A DNA stretch of 64,000 bases, from NCBI GenBank assembly GCA_937773775.1, contig CALJVL010000008.1, positions 62,001 to 126,000 on the forward strand. The letters are read 5' to 3'. Position 1 is the first letter of the stretch, and each line of letters starts with the position of its first letter. The notes beneath the pieces are model-generated. The model was given only the letters and a program-made list of their open reading frames with translations. It was not told the DNA's origin and did no database searches. A program made the position numbers and the translations under genes. This stretch comes from an uncultured Flavobacterium sp. Its GTDB lineage: Bacteria; Bacteroidota; Bacteroidia; Flavobacteriales; Flavobacteriaceae. Below are positions 21,565-28,113 of the stretch, piece after piece.

Positions 21565-22479
21565 ATGAAAATCGCATTGAATACTACGTCAAACACATTT
21601 TCCCTTAAAACGGTTTTTTTTGATTTTAAAGAAATCACGAAGGCAGGACTGGCAATCAGTGTTTTATTTTCCTCGATTGCGGGTTACTTTCTGGGCTTTA
21701 ACGATCAACAGCCTTTTCAATGGTCTGTTTTAATAATGCTTGCCATTGGCGGTTATTGTATGGTAGGAGCTTCTAATGCTTTTAATCAAGTTATTGAGAA
21801 AGATTTAGATGCTTTAATGAACAGAACTAAAAATCGGCCCGTTCCAGCTGGAAGAATGTCCCCTACGACTGCGCTACTGATAGCGAGTTTGTTGACTATA
21901 ATCGGAATTTCTTTGTTATATATGATTAATCCCAAAACAGCAATGTTTGGTGCGATTTCTATATTTTTATATACAAGTGTCTATACACCATTGAAGACTG
22001 TGACATCGTTGTCTGTTTTTGTCGGTGCTTTTCCCGGGGCGATCCCTTTTATGTTAGGCTGGGTTGCGGCTACTGGGGATTTTGGAATAGAGGCTGGAAC
22101 TTTATTTTTGATTCAGTTTTTCTGGCAGTTCCCGCACTTTTGGGCAATTGGTTGGTTTTTATATGAAGATTATGAAAGAGCAGGTTTTTTCATGCTTCCT
22201 ACAGGGAAGAGAGATAAAGGTACGGCGCTACAGGTGATTTTATATACCGTCTGGCTAGTTATATCCTCGTTATTACCCGCTCTGGGTTATACAGGTAAAT
22301 TATTCATGTCGCCTATTGCTGCGGTGGTTGTTTTTTTACTGGGTCTTTGGATGCTTTACTATGCCGTGCAACTATACAAATTGAGAAGTGCAAAAGCAGC
22401 AAGGACTTTGATGCTGGTAAGTGTTTCGTATATCACTTTGTTACAATTCGTTTATATAATTGATAAATTTTTGAGATAA
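21565..22479 (+). CDS. ctaB: Protoheme IX farnesyltransferase (heme O synthase)
   Basis: A 304-residue UbiA-family prenyltransferase with about nine transmembrane helices. The signature NAFNQVIEKDLDALMNRTKN contains the Asp-rich prenyl-diphosphate/Mg site, followed by RPVPAGRMSP. A second conserved segment is YEDYERAGFFMLP. It adds a farnesyl group to heme B to form heme O for the oxidase. It is first in a run of oxidase genes, and subunit III starts 2 nt after its stop. Confidence 0.95.
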   Translation: MKIALNTTSNTFSLKTVFFDFKEITKAGLAISVLFSSIAGYFLGFNDQQPFQWSVLIMLAIGGYCMVGASNAFNQVIEKDLDALMNRTKNRPVPAGRMSPTTALLIASLLTIIGISLLYMINPKTAMFGAISIFLYTSVYTPLKTVTSLSVFVGAFPGAIPFMLGWVAATGDFGIEAGTLFLIQFFWQFPHFWAIGWFLYEDYERAGFFMLPTGKRDKGTALQVILYTVWLVISSLLPALGYTGKLFMSPIAAVVVFLLGLWMLYYAVQLYKLRSAKAARTLMLVSVSYITLLQFVYIIDKFLR

Positions 22480-22481
22480 TT

Positions 22482-23069
22482 ATGGATATTACAATGACAA
22501 AAGACGAGCATAAAGCGAGGACGGCGAGATCATACAAATTGATTTTGTTGTTTGCTATGGTCAGCATGACTATGATGTTTGCGGGACTTACAAGTGCGTT
22601 CGTGGTGAGCAAATCTAGGGTGGATTGGTTAAAGGATTTTGAATTGCCTACTGCGTTTTATTACAGTACTCTGGTGATTTTGGGTTGCAGTGTTACTTTT
22701 CATTTAGCTAAAAAAGCCATTCAAAAAGACAATAAAGCTGGCACAACTACATTTCTTTTTGCTACTTTAGCCATGGGAATATTATTTGTGATTTTGCAGT
22801 TTGTGGGGTTTGGCCAAATTGTAGAGAACGGCTATTATTTTACAGGAGCTGAGAGTTCAATTACAACTACATTTCTTTACATCGTGACGGTTGTGCACTT
22901 GATTCACCTAGCAGGTGGGTTGATTTCACTTCTAATTGTAATTTATAATCATTTTAAACAAAAATACAATTCGAGTCAAACTCTTGGAATAGAACTAGGT
23001 GCGATGTACTGGCACTTTCTTGATTTCTTGTGGGTTTATTTATTTGTATTTTTATATTTCTTTAAATAA
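22482..23069 (+). CDS. Cytochrome c oxidase subunit III (short form)
   Basis: A 195-residue membrane protein with five to six helices. The C-terminal half has HLIHLAGGLISLL and ends YWHFLDFLWVYLFVFLYFFK, the conserved closing helix of COX3/CyoC proteins. It assists the oxidase core but carries no metal centre. An alternative start is the second Met (MTKDEH). A second, longer subunit III gene follows immediately; such pairs are common in Bacteroidota oxidase clusters, whose subunits I and II are often elsewhere (none in this window). Confidence 0.9.
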   Translation: MDITMTKDEHKARTARSYKLILLFAMVSMTMMFAGLTSAFVVSKSRVDWLKDFELPTAFYYSTLVILGCSVTFHLAKKAIQKDNKAGTTTFLFATLAMGILFVILQFVGFGQIVENGYYFTGAESSITTTFLYIVTVVHLIHLAGGLISLLIVIYNHFKQKYNSSQTLGIELGAMYWHFLDFLWVYLFVFLYFFK

Positions 23070-23111
23070 GAAAAAAACGTAAATTTGGGAACTTTTTAAC
23101 GAATAACTTTT

Positions 23112-24140
23112 ATGGGATCGACAGTTACTACTGCAAATACTGAAGAAAAAACTTGGGGAGGTGGCAATGAGCCAATGGGAGCGAGTTATGGTAAATTAAT
23201 GATGTGGTTTTTTATCGTATCTGATGCTTTAACGTTCTCTGGATTTTTAGCAGCCTATGGTTTTTCTAGATTTAAATTTATCGAAACGTGGCCTTTGGCA
23301 GATGAAGTGTTTACTCATTTCCCCTTCATGCACGGCGTTTCTGCGCCAATGTATTATGTGGCGTTAATGACTTTTATTTTAATTTTTTCATCTGTAACGA
23401 TGGTTTTGGCTGTTGACGCAGGTCATCAAATGAAAAAGGACAAAGTTGTTGTTTATATGTTTTTGACCATTGTTGGTGGTATGATATTCGTAGGTTCACA
23501 AGCTTGGGAATGGAATAATTTCATTAAAGGCGAATACGGTGCGATCGAGACAAAGGGAGGTAGTTTACTTCAGTTTGTTGACAAAGACGGACATCGTGTC
23601 GCACTTGATGATTTTTCTGAGAACTTTCATTCAGAAAGAGAGCAGTTGACAAGCAATAAAGGAAAGTGGTTTATGAGTGAGCCTTCTTTACCATCCTACT
23701 CGGTAGCAGAGGTTCAGGCTGGTTTTAAAGCGCATCCCGATCTACTGATAAGAACGGAGGTTATTTATGAAGCAGATGAGGCAACGATGAAAGATGCCAA
23801 AATCAATCATGAATTAACTAAAATTAGGCACAAAACAATTCTGACAAGAGAAGAGTCTTTGTTGAGGTTAGGACAGGCTACCTATGTTGTTGAAGGTGCT
23901 AATTTGATAAGAAACGAATATGGGAGTAAATTATTTGCTGATTTCTTTTTCTTTATAACAGGTTTTCACGGTTTTCACGTTTTTTCAGGTGTAATTATAA
24001 ACATAATTATATTTTTTAATGTACTTATTGGTACCTACGAAAAAAGAGGCAGTTATGAAATGGTAGAGAAAGTTGGTTTGTACTGGCACTTTGTCGATTT
24101 AGTTTGGGTATTCGTTTTTACAGTATTTTATCTAGTTTAA
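23112..24140 (+). CDS. Cytochrome c oxidase subunit III (long form with hydrophilic insertion)
   Basis: A 342-residue COX3 homologue. Helices typical of the family surround a hydrophilic stretch (about residues 140-270) rich in charged residues, not present in the shorter neighbour. After it come GFHGFHVFSG and the closing YWHFVDLVWVFVFTVFYLV motif, which mark the family clearly. It is likely part of the same oxidase as the neighbouring genes. The insertion faces one side of the membrane between helices and may contact another subunit; this is inference. Confidence 0.9.
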   Translation: MGSTVTTANTEEKTWGGGNEPMGASYGKLMMWFFIVSDALTFSGFLAAYGFSRFKFIETWPLADEVFTHFPFMHGVSAPMYYVALMTFILIFSSVTMVLAVDAGHQMKKDKVVVYMFLTIVGGMIFVGSQAWEWNNFIKGEYGAIETKGGSLLQFVDKDGHRVALDDFSENFHSEREQLTSNKGKWFMSEPSLPSYSVAEVQAGFKAHPDLLIRTEVIYEADEATMKDAKINHELTKIRHKTILTREESLLRLGQATYVVEGANLIRNEYGSKLFADFFFFITGFHGFHVFSGVIINIIIFFNVLIGTYEKRGSYEMVEKVGLYWHFVDLVWVFVFTVFYLV

Positions 24141-24158: not shown

Positions 24159-24509
24159 ATGTCACACGTACATGTATCAAATACAAGTAGAATTTGGAAG
24201 GTTTTTGGAATATTATCTGCGGTTACAATTATAGAGGTTATTCTAGGAATTCTTAAACCAGAAGTTTTACACTTAAATTATTTCATGGGAATGAATTTAC
24301 TAAACTGGATATTTTATGCTCTAACTATATACAAGGCGTACTATATTGTATTCGCTTTTATGCATATGGAGGGAGAAAAAAGTAGCCTAAGATCAGCAGT
24401 TGTTCTGCCTGTCATATTTTTAATATTATATTTACTTTTTATATTATTGACAGAAGGTAATTATATATATGGGGTTTTTAAAAATTCGACTATTAAATGG
24501 AATTTTTAA
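24159..24509 (+). CDS. Cytochrome c oxidase subunit IV-type (CyoD/COX4-pro-like) protein
   Basis: A 116-residue protein with three hydrophobic helices (about 12-30, 45-70, 80-105) and the family turn YIVFAFMHMEGEKSSLR between the second and third. Members are small accessory subunits stabilising heme-copper oxidases. It is the last gene of the ctaB-COX3-COX3-COX4 run and is followed by a terminator. Confidence 0.88.
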   Translation: MSHVHVSNTSRIWKVFGILSAVTIIEVILGILKPEVLHLNYFMGMNLLNWIFYALTIYKAYYIVFAFMHMEGEKSSLRSAVVLPVIFLILYLLFILLTEGNYIYGVFKNSTIKWNF

Positions 24510-24523
24510 CAAAATATTAATTC

Positions 24524-24558
24524 AAAAAAAGGGTACGCATTGCGTGCCTTTTTTTATT
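24524..24558 (+). terminator. Terminator after the oxidase subunit genes
   Basis: Stem AAAAAAGGGTACGC paired with GCGTGCCTTTTTT (one bulged G and one wobble), a very short loop and a T run. The T run overlaps the -7 box of the next gene. Confidence 0.85.
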
Positions 24559-24562
24559 TTTG
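24555..24562 (+). promoter_or_regulatory. Bacteroidota -7 box (TATTTTTG) for the SCO gene group
   Basis: Exact TAnnTTTG, 25 nt before the ATG at 24588. It shares bases with the U-tract of the preceding terminator. Confidence 0.6.
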
Positions 24563-24587: not shown

Positions 24588-25229
24588 ATGAAAAAAAATA
24601 TTGTTCTTTTTGTTCTTTTTGTATTGCCAATTGTTGCTTATCTTTTTTTTGCATCCGGTGTTAATAGCTTTACAAAACTGCCCATGATCACTCCAAGCAT
24701 TCCTGATTTTGGGGATTGGGAAACTTTGAATAATGAAAAAGTTAGTCTGGACAATAAAATCACCATTTTGGGTTTTGCTGGCACCGATGTAGTTAAACAC
24801 AGAGGGAACTTATTCAATCTTAACGAGAAAATTTATCAACGGTATCATACTTTTAAGGACTTGCAGTTCGTTATGGTCTGCCCTTTAGGAACAGAAGATG
24901 ATATTAAGAGTATTATGGATGCATTAGATGAATTTACTGATGTGTCGCAATGGCATTTTGTTTTTACTACCCCAGAACAAATTAATGAATATTACAGCCA
25001 GTTAAAACTAGTTGGGAAATTGGATAAAAACTCTGGTACCTCTGATGTCTATATTGTTGACAAAAAGCGAAATCTTAGAGGTAGGAAAGAAAAGAAGGGT
25101 TATAAAGAGGGCTATGATACTTTTCATCCCGCCGAATTGAGTAATGAGATGTTAGATGATTTTAAGGTGATTCTTTACGAATATCGTGCTGCACTCAAGA
25201 AAAATAATAATGCCACAAAGCAACTTTAA
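24588..25229 (+). CDS. SCO/thioredoxin-fold-like membrane protein lacking the copper ligands
   Basis: A 213-residue protein with an N-terminal membrane anchor (IVLFVLFVLPIVAYLFF). The ORF-track start at 24540 is within the terminator/promoter, so the ATG at 24588 is used. By eye it aligns along its length with the SCO protein encoded next: ILGFAGTDVVKH corresponds to LEFFFTTCPSIC, and DVYIVDKKRNLRGR to LFALVDKNGNFRCR. The CxxxC copper site is replaced by D67xxxH71, and the histidine of FEHSG is absent. It cannot be a classical copper chaperone. It may be a structural or regulatory paralogue in oxidase assembly. The function is unknown. Confidence 0.75.
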   Translation: MKKNIVLFVLFVLPIVAYLFFASGVNSFTKLPMITPSIPDFGDWETLNNEKVSLDNKITILGFAGTDVVKHRGNLFNLNEKIYQRYHTFKDLQFVMVCPLGTEDDIKSIMDALDEFTDVSQWHFVFTTPEQINEYYSQLKLVGKLDKNSGTSDVYIVDKKRNLRGRKEKKGYKEGYDTFHPAELSNEMLDDFKVILYEYRAALKKNNNATKQL

Positions 25230-25240
25230 AGTTATAGTTT

Positions 25241-25927
25241 ATGTTTAAAAATAAATCTTACATCGGTATTTCATTTATAATTCTCATTTTTGGAATTTAT
25301 GCAGTTCCCAAGATTATTTCAAGGATACAAAATAATGAAATTGTACAAGGGGATCGTTTGGACCTAGTGACGGGAGGAAATAAAGAGGGCGAGAAGTTGA
25401 CGAAAATAGGACCCGCACCAAAATTTGAGTTGCTTAACCAGAACAATATAAAAATCAGCAATGAGACCTACCTTGGAAAAGTGTACGTGTTGGAATTTTT
25501 CTTTACTACTTGTCCATCAATTTGTCCAAAAATGAATCAAAGTATGCTGTTGATTGAGAAAAAGTTTTTTGGCAATCCAAATTTCGGAATAGTTTCGATC
25601 ACGATTGACCCGTCTCACGATACACCAGCCGTTTTGGAAGCGCATTTGGAGTTATTAGGTGTCAAGTCTTCAAACTGGAATTTCCTGACAGGCGATAGAG
25701 AGTATATATTTAATTTGGCTAACAAAGGCTTTAACCTATATGCAGGAGAGAATAGTAATGTAAAGGGAGGTTTCGAGCATTCAGGTTTGTTCGCTTTAGT
25801 TGACAAAAATGGAAATTTTCGTTGCAGGAAGGATGACTTTGGTAATCCGATCTTGTATTATGATGGTTTAGAGAAAAAAGGAGTAAGGGATATACAGCAA
25901 GACATAGCAATATTATTAAAAGAATAA
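25241..25927 (+). CDS. SCO1/SenC family copper chaperone for cytochrome oxidase
   Basis: A 228-residue protein anchored by an N-terminal helix, with a periplasmic thioredoxin fold. The copper ligands are present: C91 and C95 in TTCPSIC and H180 in FEHSG. It delivers copper to the CuA site of oxidase subunit II or acts as its thiol reductant. It lies 11 nt after the ligand-less paralogue and 2 nt before a DUF420 protein, all in the same direction as the oxidase genes. Confidence 0.95.
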   Translation: MFKNKSYIGISFIILIFGIYAVPKIISRIQNNEIVQGDRLDLVTGGNKEGEKLTKIGPAPKFELLNQNNIKISNETYLGKVYVLEFFFTTCPSICPKMNQSMLLIEKKFFGNPNFGIVSITIDPSHDTPAVLEAHLELLGVKSSNWNFLTGDREYIFNLANKGFNLYAGENSNVKGGFEHSGLFALVDKNGNFRCRKDDFGNPILYYDGLEKKGVRDIQQDIAILLKE

Positions 25928-25929
25928 AA

Positions 25930-26469
25930 ATGGAAAATAGTTCTCTTGAAAAAAAGTATAGTAGTTTAATAATAGTGGTTTCGGTTGTGATCCCAATTGC
26001 GGTTGCGCTGCTTTTTACAGTTAAATTAAAAGATTTTGGTATACAAGTTACACCGCTTTCGTTTTTACCTCCAATTTACGCTGCAATAAACGGGCTAACG
26101 GCTGTAGTTTTAGTTGCAGGTGTCTTAGCTATTAAAAACGGAAAACGCCAACTCCACCAGCGATTTATGACGACAGCAATTGCACTTTCTCTTGCTTTTT
26201 TAGTGATGTATATTGCCTATCACATGACCACGGACTCTACTAAATTTGGAGGTGAAGGAATCATTAAATATGTTTACTTCTTCATACTTATTACGCATAT
26301 TATCTTGTCTATAATTGTTATTCCTTTAGTTTTGGTTACATATGTTCGCGCTATAGCGGAAGTATTCGATAAACATAAGAAAATTGCCAAAATTACTTTT
26401 CCTATTTGGCTATATGTTGCCGTTACTGGCGTTGTAGTATTTTTAATGATATCTCCATATTATGTTTAG
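25930..26469 (+). CDS. DUF420 family membrane protein (CtaM-like)
   Basis: A 179-residue protein with five transmembrane segments. Conserved family features are LPPIYAAINGLTA, the HQRFMTTA loop, an AYHMTT helix end and two further histidines in the ITHIILS helix. DUF420 members accompany cytochrome oxidase and SCO genes, and CtaM of Gram-positives is needed for oxidase maturation. The start is 2 nt after the SCO stop, and the end overlaps the next small gene by 8 nt. Confidence 0.9.
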   Translation: MENSSLEKKYSSLIIVVSVVIPIAVALLFTVKLKDFGIQVTPLSFLPPIYAAINGLTAVVLVAGVLAIKNGKRQLHQRFMTTAIALSLAFLVMYIAYHMTTDSTKFGGEGIIKYVYFFILITHIILSIIVIPLVLVTYVRAIAEVFDKHKKIAKITFPIWLYVAVTGVVVFLMISPYYV

Positions 26470-26709: not shown

Positions 26710-28113
26710 CTATTTCAGCCCGTCTATTGCAATACTGATTTCTCCGTTTACTGTAACTAGAGCTATAATGGCATTGTTTGTTAGTTGAATTTTTTTAAAT
26801 TTGAATTCTTCTATTTTCCCGTTAACAAAGATACCTGGCAGTGGAGTGTAATTGTCCAGAAAGCTCATCATGGTTCGTTTCCCTTCGTTTAAATTTGACT
26901 GGATAGAATAACGGCAATTCTGCTTAATTTTACTTAAAATCACCCCTTGTACAAGCCAGTTTGCGATGCGCATCAGTTTGTTTTTTGTGTCCAATACATA
27001 TTCTAAATCGTCAAAATAGATTTCTTTTGTTTCGTCGTCGTATTTAGGGAGGCCAGATAAATAGAGTATTCCGTTTACGGATCCTAATACTTCCAAAGCA
27101 ATTACCATTTTACCGTCTTTGTGCCAAATAGAGACATTCTGAACTGTGATTTTTTTTCCTTCCGATCCAAATTCTTGTCCTCTGAAGTTTTTTGTTATTA
27201 TTCTAGACGCATCATGATAACTTGAAACAGCAACAATATTTGCCTTTATTTGATTTTGAACTTTTATTACGGACTTTAAGGTTATTTTATTGGTGTCAAA
27301 TTTGGATTCTGGTTGAGTTCCTATTAAGGTCTCCATAGTGCATTTCATTCCCATTTGTAATTCAAATGAGTCCTTTTTCAATTTGGCTGGGGTTGAGTAT
27401 ATTTCGATTGGTATAATTCTAAGCCAACTCTCGTAGTCATCATTCATTTTATAAGGATTGCAAACTTCTTCTAAGGCTTCCAATACATTAGGTTTGAAAT
27501 CCATGGATTTTGAAATTGCATCATCTATTTTTTTTTCTATTTTTGATTTAAATAGTTTTATTGCAGGGTTGATCAGGTAGGTTATTGGAACATTTTTTCC
27601 TAATAGATACATTGTTGGTGCTTCATTCCATTCTAATGATTTTAGCTCGGTCTTAGTTTTTAGCTGCCAATTAGTTAAGGAAACCTCACTAAGCAGAGTA
27701 ACCATTCCACTTAAATTAAATTCTCTCGTATTGTAAAGTTCCACACCCATAGTTTTTGTGCCGATTCTATATTTGACCATTGCTTTTAAGGGTAGAATGG
27801 TTTCTATTTTTTCTTTCGAAGTAGTATTAGCATTTTTGATTGTTATAGGTGCCAATTTCCATATTTTAACTACAATATCATCATCCTCGATATTATTGTC
27901 TTCGTAAATAAGTCCGGTCAATAGCGAATTAGTTTTGTTCTCGATATCTTTCAGTTTAATGTTAATGGGTAGATTGATAAAGGAAAGGCTGTTTTCGTAA
28001 ACGAGGGGAGCAGCATCATCGGGTTCGGGTCTTAAAGTACTGATTTTTTGAGAAGTACTACAGCTCAACAATAAAGAGCAAAAAAAGGCAAGATTCACTA
28101 TGTGCTTTAGCAT
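26710..28113 (-). CDS. DUF4403 family lipoprotein
   Basis: A 467-residue protein. The N-terminus has a lipoprotein signal, with the lipobox LLLSC before STSQKIS, so it is probably anchored to a periplasmic membrane face. The body is mixed alpha/beta, with the early SLSFINLPINIKLKDIE segment and the closing NGEISIAIDGL typical of DUF4403, a family found in Bacteroidota and Proteobacteria with predicted lipid-binding tubular folds. It stands alone on the minus strand. The biological role is unknown. Confidence 0.85.
   Translation of the reverse strand: MLKHIVNLAFFCSLLLSCSTSQKISTLRPEPDDAAPLVYENSLSFINLPINIKLKDIENKTNSLLTGLIYEDNNIEDDDIVVKIWKLAPITIKNANTTSKEKIETILPLKAMVKYRIGTKTMGVELYNTREFNLSGMVTLLSEVSLTNWQLKTKTELKSLEWNEAPTMYLLGKNVPITYLINPAIKLFKSKIEKKIDDAISKSMDFKPNVLEALEEVCNPYKMNDDYESWLRIIPIEIYSTPAKLKKDSFELQMGMKCTMETLIGTQPESKFDTNKITLKSVIKVQNQIKANIVAVSSYHDASRIITKNFRGQEFGSEGKKITVQNVSIWHKDGKMVIALEVLGSVNGILYLSGLPKYDDETKEIYFDDLEYVLDTKNKLMRIANWLVQGVILSKIKQNCRYSIQSNLNEGKRTMMSFLDNYTPLPGIFVNGKIEEFKFKKIQLTNNAIIALVTVNGEISIAIDGLK

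Follow-up and report, generated by a model that had tools for sequence, protein, structure and literature searches.

A Copper Ligand-free SCO-like Protein Encoded beside a Canonical SCO in the aa3 Oxidase Operon of Flavobacteriaceae

Results

We find that nearly all Flavobacteriaceae encode, directly upstream of a canonical SCO, an SCO-like protein in which all three copper ligands have been replaced. Judged from profile and fold comparisons, this cysteine-less (Cys-less) protein is a distant SCO paralogue. On balance, we read it as a copper-free docking or scaffold SCO that assists aa3 oxidase assembly alongside the copper-bearing SCO, by a mechanism that we infer below. What is new is a bacterial ligand-less SCO family, its near-universality in Flavobacteriaceae, and a visible division of parts between two neighboring proteins.

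In the window (the whole 64,000-nucleotide stretch analyzed here, from an uncultured Flavobacterium sp.), Pfam matches define a cluster in the order ctaB, COX3 (two genes), COX4, Cys-less paralogue, SCO, and DUF420 (Table 1). The initial annotation had described a 213-residue protein next to a canonical SCO, and the open reading frame is indeed real. Its start codon at 24588 is backed by the alignment of orthologues and by the position of a terminator-like hairpin just 5' of it. The nearest named relatives are F. degerlachei and F. frigoris (89% identity in this protein).

Table 1. Features of the Cys-less paralogue and its gene neighborhood (window coordinates)
Feature	Position	Strand	Evidence
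UbiA-family heme O synthase (ctaB) and two COX3 genes, rest of cluster	21565–24140	+	Pfam
Cytochrome c oxidase subunit IV (PF03626), upstream neighbor	24159–24509	+	Pfam
Intrinsic-terminator-like hairpin, 14 pairs, between cox4 and Cys-less paralogue	24525–24555	+	
TATTTTTG, matches Bacteroidota -7 box TAnnTTTG	24555–24562	+	Pattern match
Cys-less SCO paralogue, 213 aa	24588–25229 including stop (coding 24588–25226)	+	ORF, alignments, AF2 model
Domains of Cys-less paralogue	TM helix 2–22; juxtamembrane motif to about 32; thioredoxin-like core 57–180; long C-terminal helix 181–211		
N-terminal membrane anchor and juxtamembrane motif (LP..Y....G.N.F..LP), residues 1–32	24588–24683	+	Profile scores, conservation
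Former CxxxC loop, residues 64–72, variable	24777–24803	+	Conservation, orthologue counts
Conserved C-terminal helix/tail (M.DD.K..L.EYR.ALKKN), residues 181–206	25128–25205	+	Alignment, AF2 model, profiles
Canonical SCO (CPSIC ... H180), without operon-type anchor and most of tail	25241–25927	+	PF02630, E = 1.8e-24
DUF420 membrane protein (PF04238), downstream neighbor	25930–26469	+	Pfam

A pairwise BLASTP comparison of the Cys-less paralogue with the adjacent SCO returns a C-terminal match only (E = 0.048). When 39 orthologues of the paralogue were compared with 36 adjacent SCOs using hhalign, the two families matched over residues 53–198 (E = 5.9e-8, probability 94.7), and a profile from the single-copy operon SCOs of other Bacteroidia (see below) matches members of the Cys-less family at about 1e-13 to 1e-20. 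Neither the window protein nor any of the 39 aligned members exceeds the gathering score of PF02630; SCO annotation by means of this Pfam model misses half of the Flavobacteriaceae pair. In the AF2 model (pLDDT 89.9, pTM 0.79), a thioredoxin-like core stands between a single N-terminal helix and a C-terminal helix of 31 residues. The top PDB match of this model in a Foldseek search is BsSco from Bacillus (PDB ID 1xzo, E = 6.3e-7); ResA and yeast, human, and Arabidopsis SCO structures are found lower in the list. A similarity to Pfam LPG_synthase_C (E = 0.018, below the cut-off; seen in 10 of the 39 members, best value 1.4e-4) was judged to be due to chance, since both the profile and the fold evidence indicate SCO. 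The SCO-like character proposed initially is thus borne out at the level of family profiles. The accompanying claim of an alignment along the full length holds for residues 53–198, whereas the N-terminal segment matches the lone operon SCO found in other Bacteroidia and not the neighboring protein. Like SCO1/SenC proteins (PF02630; BsSco, human SCO1/SCO2), the paralogue has a thioredoxin-like domain, one N-terminal TM helix, and a gene linked to oxidase genes, and the homology is seen at the profile level. It differs from them in having no CxxxC motif, no copper histidine, and no PF02630 match, and in its other conserved surfaces, the anchor and the C-terminal helix.

Residues Cys-91, Cys-95, and His-180 of the adjacent SCO align with Val-68, Arg-72, and Gly-150 of the Cys-less paralogue, such that none of the three ligands is retained. 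The initial annotation had equated CPSIC with DVVKH; the loss of CxxxC is confirmed, but the register was one residue off, and the true counterpart is VVKHR (residues 68–72). We examined 199 loci, a sample in which some genomes were taken twice and which includes 30 of the more divergent Flavobacteriaceae copies. No orthologue of the Cys-less paralogue has a CxxxC motif (0/199), and the motif is present in the single-copy operon SCOs of other families and in 197 of the 199 adjacent SCOs, the two exceptions (L007 and L101) lying near a contig end at which the SCO gene is cut. The copper histidine column (position 150) is Gly, Ser, or Ala in 190/199 orthologues, in agreement with the reported loss of the HSG histidine. 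The former Cys loop has a mean pairwise identity of 0.33 in the Cys-less family and contains no Cys in any homologue. Residues Asp-158, Arg-164, Gly-165, and Asp-191 are invariant, and Glu-198, Tyr-199, and Lys-204 are nearly so.

Most other Bacteroidia families examined encode one SCO with CxxxC and His in the same place of the operon (cox4-SCO-DUF420). These single-copy operon SCOs share with the Cys-less paralogue an N-terminal segment (LP..Y....G.H/N.F..LP) and a C-terminal tail (DDIKVL.AEY...L), which is predicted to form a long helix (27 versus 31 residues); unlike the paralogue, they retain the copper ligands and would combine both jobs in one protein. Two of them (L186 and L187) carry an inserted CxxC-rich, zinc ribbon-like stretch (CKFCGDSS...CPSC and CTGCDTSS...CSGC, respectively) toward the C terminus, just before the YDGT motif. 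From an alignment of 33 single-copy operon SCOs, we built separate profiles for anchor, core, and tail and ran each against both Flavobacteriaceae proteins. Median scores for the Cys-less family versus the adjacent SCO are 32.5 versus -1.2 bits with the anchor profile, 25 versus 170 bits with the core profile, and 26.8 versus 2.4 bits with the tail profile. Mean pairwise identity is 0.77 in the anchor and C-terminal helix of the Cys-less family; in the adjacent SCO it amounts to 0.82 in the Cys loop, 0.93 in the His region, and 0.44 at the N terminus. The pattern is that of two paralogues, each keeping a different part of one ancestral protein: in Flavobacteriaceae, the Cys-less paralogue appears to have kept the anchor and the C-terminal helix, and the adjacent SCO the copper core. 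The presence of CxxxC in the single-copy operon SCOs is what one would expect the ancestral type to show. The contrast in the C-tail is clean within Flavobacteriaceae only, as part of the tail survives in most secondary SCOs and in the CxxxC copies of other two-gene families (up to 33.5 bits). Because secondary SCOs score on the tail too, we dropped in part the use of the tail as an operon-specific mark.

The Cys-less paralogue is a core gene of Flavobacteriaceae. Of 36 other Flavobacterium genomes, 35 have it; family-wide, it occurs in 236/251 genomes and 223/237 sampled genera, always between cox4 and SCO. All four genes (cox4, Cys-less paralogue, SCO, and DUF420) are found at 193 of the 199 loci, the remaining six being without only COX4 or DUF420. 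Sixteen Flavobacteriaceae genomes were scored as negative: 13 of them lack an operon-type COX3, two have contigs that stop right after COX3, and one has a divergent copy. In the latter (G242, locus L230), a more diverged, anchored Cys-less protein, which a sequence search with the window protein missed, fills the gap between COX4 and SCO and is followed by a CxxxC SCO resembling a lipoprotein. Two genomes (G188 and G295) contain a cox cluster of another type with a single SCO and no Cys-less paralogue; their COX3 proteins are short. Assembly gaps explain the absence in G021 and G231 only. Because absences track a missing operon-type COX3 or another cluster type, the Cys-less gene follows this oxidase operon.

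A Cys-less/CxxxC pair also occurs in the Flavobacteriales families f10, f12, and f13 (loci L171, L170, L184, and L247). Outside Flavobacteriales, families f29 (L246, L251, and L252) and f44 (L201) contain an anchored Cys-less SCO as the single SCO of the operon. These copies resemble the Flavobacteriaceae paralogue in having kept anchor and tail and lost CxxxC and His; they differ in that no tandem partner is seen and that the f29 core is far less diverged. Three of the four f29/f44 genomes (G498, G483, and G526) encode a CxxxC SCO elsewhere, and none was found in the fourth (G562), whose assembly is 88% complete. Across all five families and Flavobacteriaceae, all Cys-less operon copies have the anchor (24–48 bits), which none of the scored CxxxC partners and secondary SCOs shows (≤7.4 bits). 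In our tree, the Cys-less copies of f1, f10, f12, and f13 group together (support 80, long branches) and f29 lies apart; the f29/f44 copies probably go back to a loss of their own, although the tree does not require one. The tree is compatible both with a tandem duplication that gave rise to the adjacent SCO from the operon SCO and with an origin elsewhere. A derivation from the common secondary SCO is unsupported, as secondary SCOs group apart.

The terminator-like hairpin upstream of the Cys-less paralogue is found in 60/60 Flavobacterium loci examined, with compensating changes that alter the letters of the stem and keep its pairing. TAnnTTTG is the consensus of the Bacteroidota -7 promoter box, and a match lies between COX4 and the Cys-less paralogue in 54 of these 60 loci. 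The conserved hairpin and promoter-like box suggest that the Cys-less paralogue, SCO, and DUF420 may form a transcription unit of their own.

Discussion

The division of modules suggests that docking at the oxidase has been split from copper carrying, between two proteins. The conserved anchor and C-terminal helix would tether the Cys-less paralogue to the nascent oxidase, with subunit II or the membrane neighbors of this subunit as the probable site. There it may position or stabilize subunit II, or help subunit II or SCO into place; copper would be brought in trans by the separate, copper-loaded SCO. That the two SCO proteins touch each other is a guess. A scaffold or partner of SCO was among the roles considered initially, and it is the best supported of them. 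More tentatively, and with somewhat less confidence than for the docking role itself, we propose that SCO function in the aa3 oxidase operons of Bacteroidota consists of modules that have come apart on more than one occasion, giving a copper-free, anchored SCO for docking and a copper carrier with no anchor or a different one.

The main rival to the docking reading, in our estimate unlikely yet deserving serious attention, is that the Cys-less paralogue belongs permanently to the mature aa3 oxidase, or to its supercomplex with alternative complex III, as an accessory subunit: an SCO relative recruited for structural purposes. The strongly conserved TM and C-terminal helices resemble fixed packing surfaces and fit this role as well as they fit docking, and the strict co-inheritance with the oxidase operon is in line with it. 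On the other hand, the gene sits with SCO and DUF420 behind the terminator-like hairpin and not with the structural subunits. We found no relative of the paralogue among PDB chains, which argues only weakly against a subunit because Flavobacterium aa3 subunits were not found in the PDB either (the best COX3 matches are from other organisms). A dead SCO that occupies the SCO site on subunit II and thereby limits or times copper transfer would be classical pseudo-enzyme behavior, given that the ligands were lost while fold and location were kept. Such a regulator or competitor should retain the target-binding core of SCO, however, and it is the core that has diverged most in the paralogue and the anchor that has diverged least, which makes this option improbable.

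We regard as more improbable still a redox or antioxidant protein using other cysteines. It would suit the thioredoxin-like fold and follows a model proposed for the plant protein HCC2 (PMC3971200), but the 199 ORFs, counted from stop to stop, mostly contain 0–2 Cys, 48 contain none, and the former active-site columns are Cys-free. The initial annotation had also considered a different ion bound through Asp-67 and His-71, and both residues do occur in the window sequence. Across the 199 loci, position 67 is Asp in 67, Glu in 62, and Asn in 36, with Lys also occurring, and position 71 is Asn in 118, Lys in 36, and His in 11. As both positions drift and neither aligns with a Cys column, we exclude such a metal site almost entirely; the apparent pair is an accident of one sequence. 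About equally negligible is a decaying duplicate without function: the low pairwise similarity to SCO might suggest one, and the occurrence in 223/237 genera, the invariant residues, and the regional constraint rule it out.

As regards bacteria, the literature and family libraries searched bear out the view that such a protein has no named function, but there is a plant precedent. Arabidopsis HCC2 is an SCO homologue that likewise lacks the ligands, and the plant also has a canonical SCO (HCC1). HCC2 is mitochondrial and Cys-rich, and we liken it to the Cys-less paralogue as an analogue only. Reports on HCC2 describe an interaction with the COX metallochaperone module and complementation of a yeast Sco2 mutant (PMC6696091); the protein is dispensable for COX activity in plants and has been linked to the UV-B response (PMC3971200). 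Since HCC2 lost the same ligands, yet interacts and complements, an SCO working without copper ligands is known in principle. In the openly accessible main texts that we searched, nothing specific was found on a bacterial Cys-less SCO or on this gene, and the accessible part of a Bizionia copper survey stresses SCOs that keep their copper site.

If SCO function is modular in the way proposed above, most Flavobacteriaceae depend on a pair of SCO proteins, of which the docking member has no part in copper handling. Whether SCO proteins do anything beyond carrying copper or electrons is an old question. With the non-copper part on a gene of its own in one bacterial family, it becomes testable by one deletion, in the genetically tractable F. 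johnsoniae, which has a deletion system (PMC8552683) and a bd oxidase as a bypass. The reading would also put a name on a conserved "hypothetical" core gene of Flavobacteriaceae.

Two further proteins in the window deserve mention. The second COX3 (23112–24140, 342 amino acids) has a hydrophilic stretch of roughly 100 residues in mid-protein, and its best PF00510/PDB COX3 match lies at its end (from about residue 274); it is a possible contact partner of the Cys-less paralogue. A DUF4403 protein (PF14356, E = 6.4e-123), probably a lipoprotein, is encoded on the minus strand at 26710–28113, convergent with the oxidase cluster.
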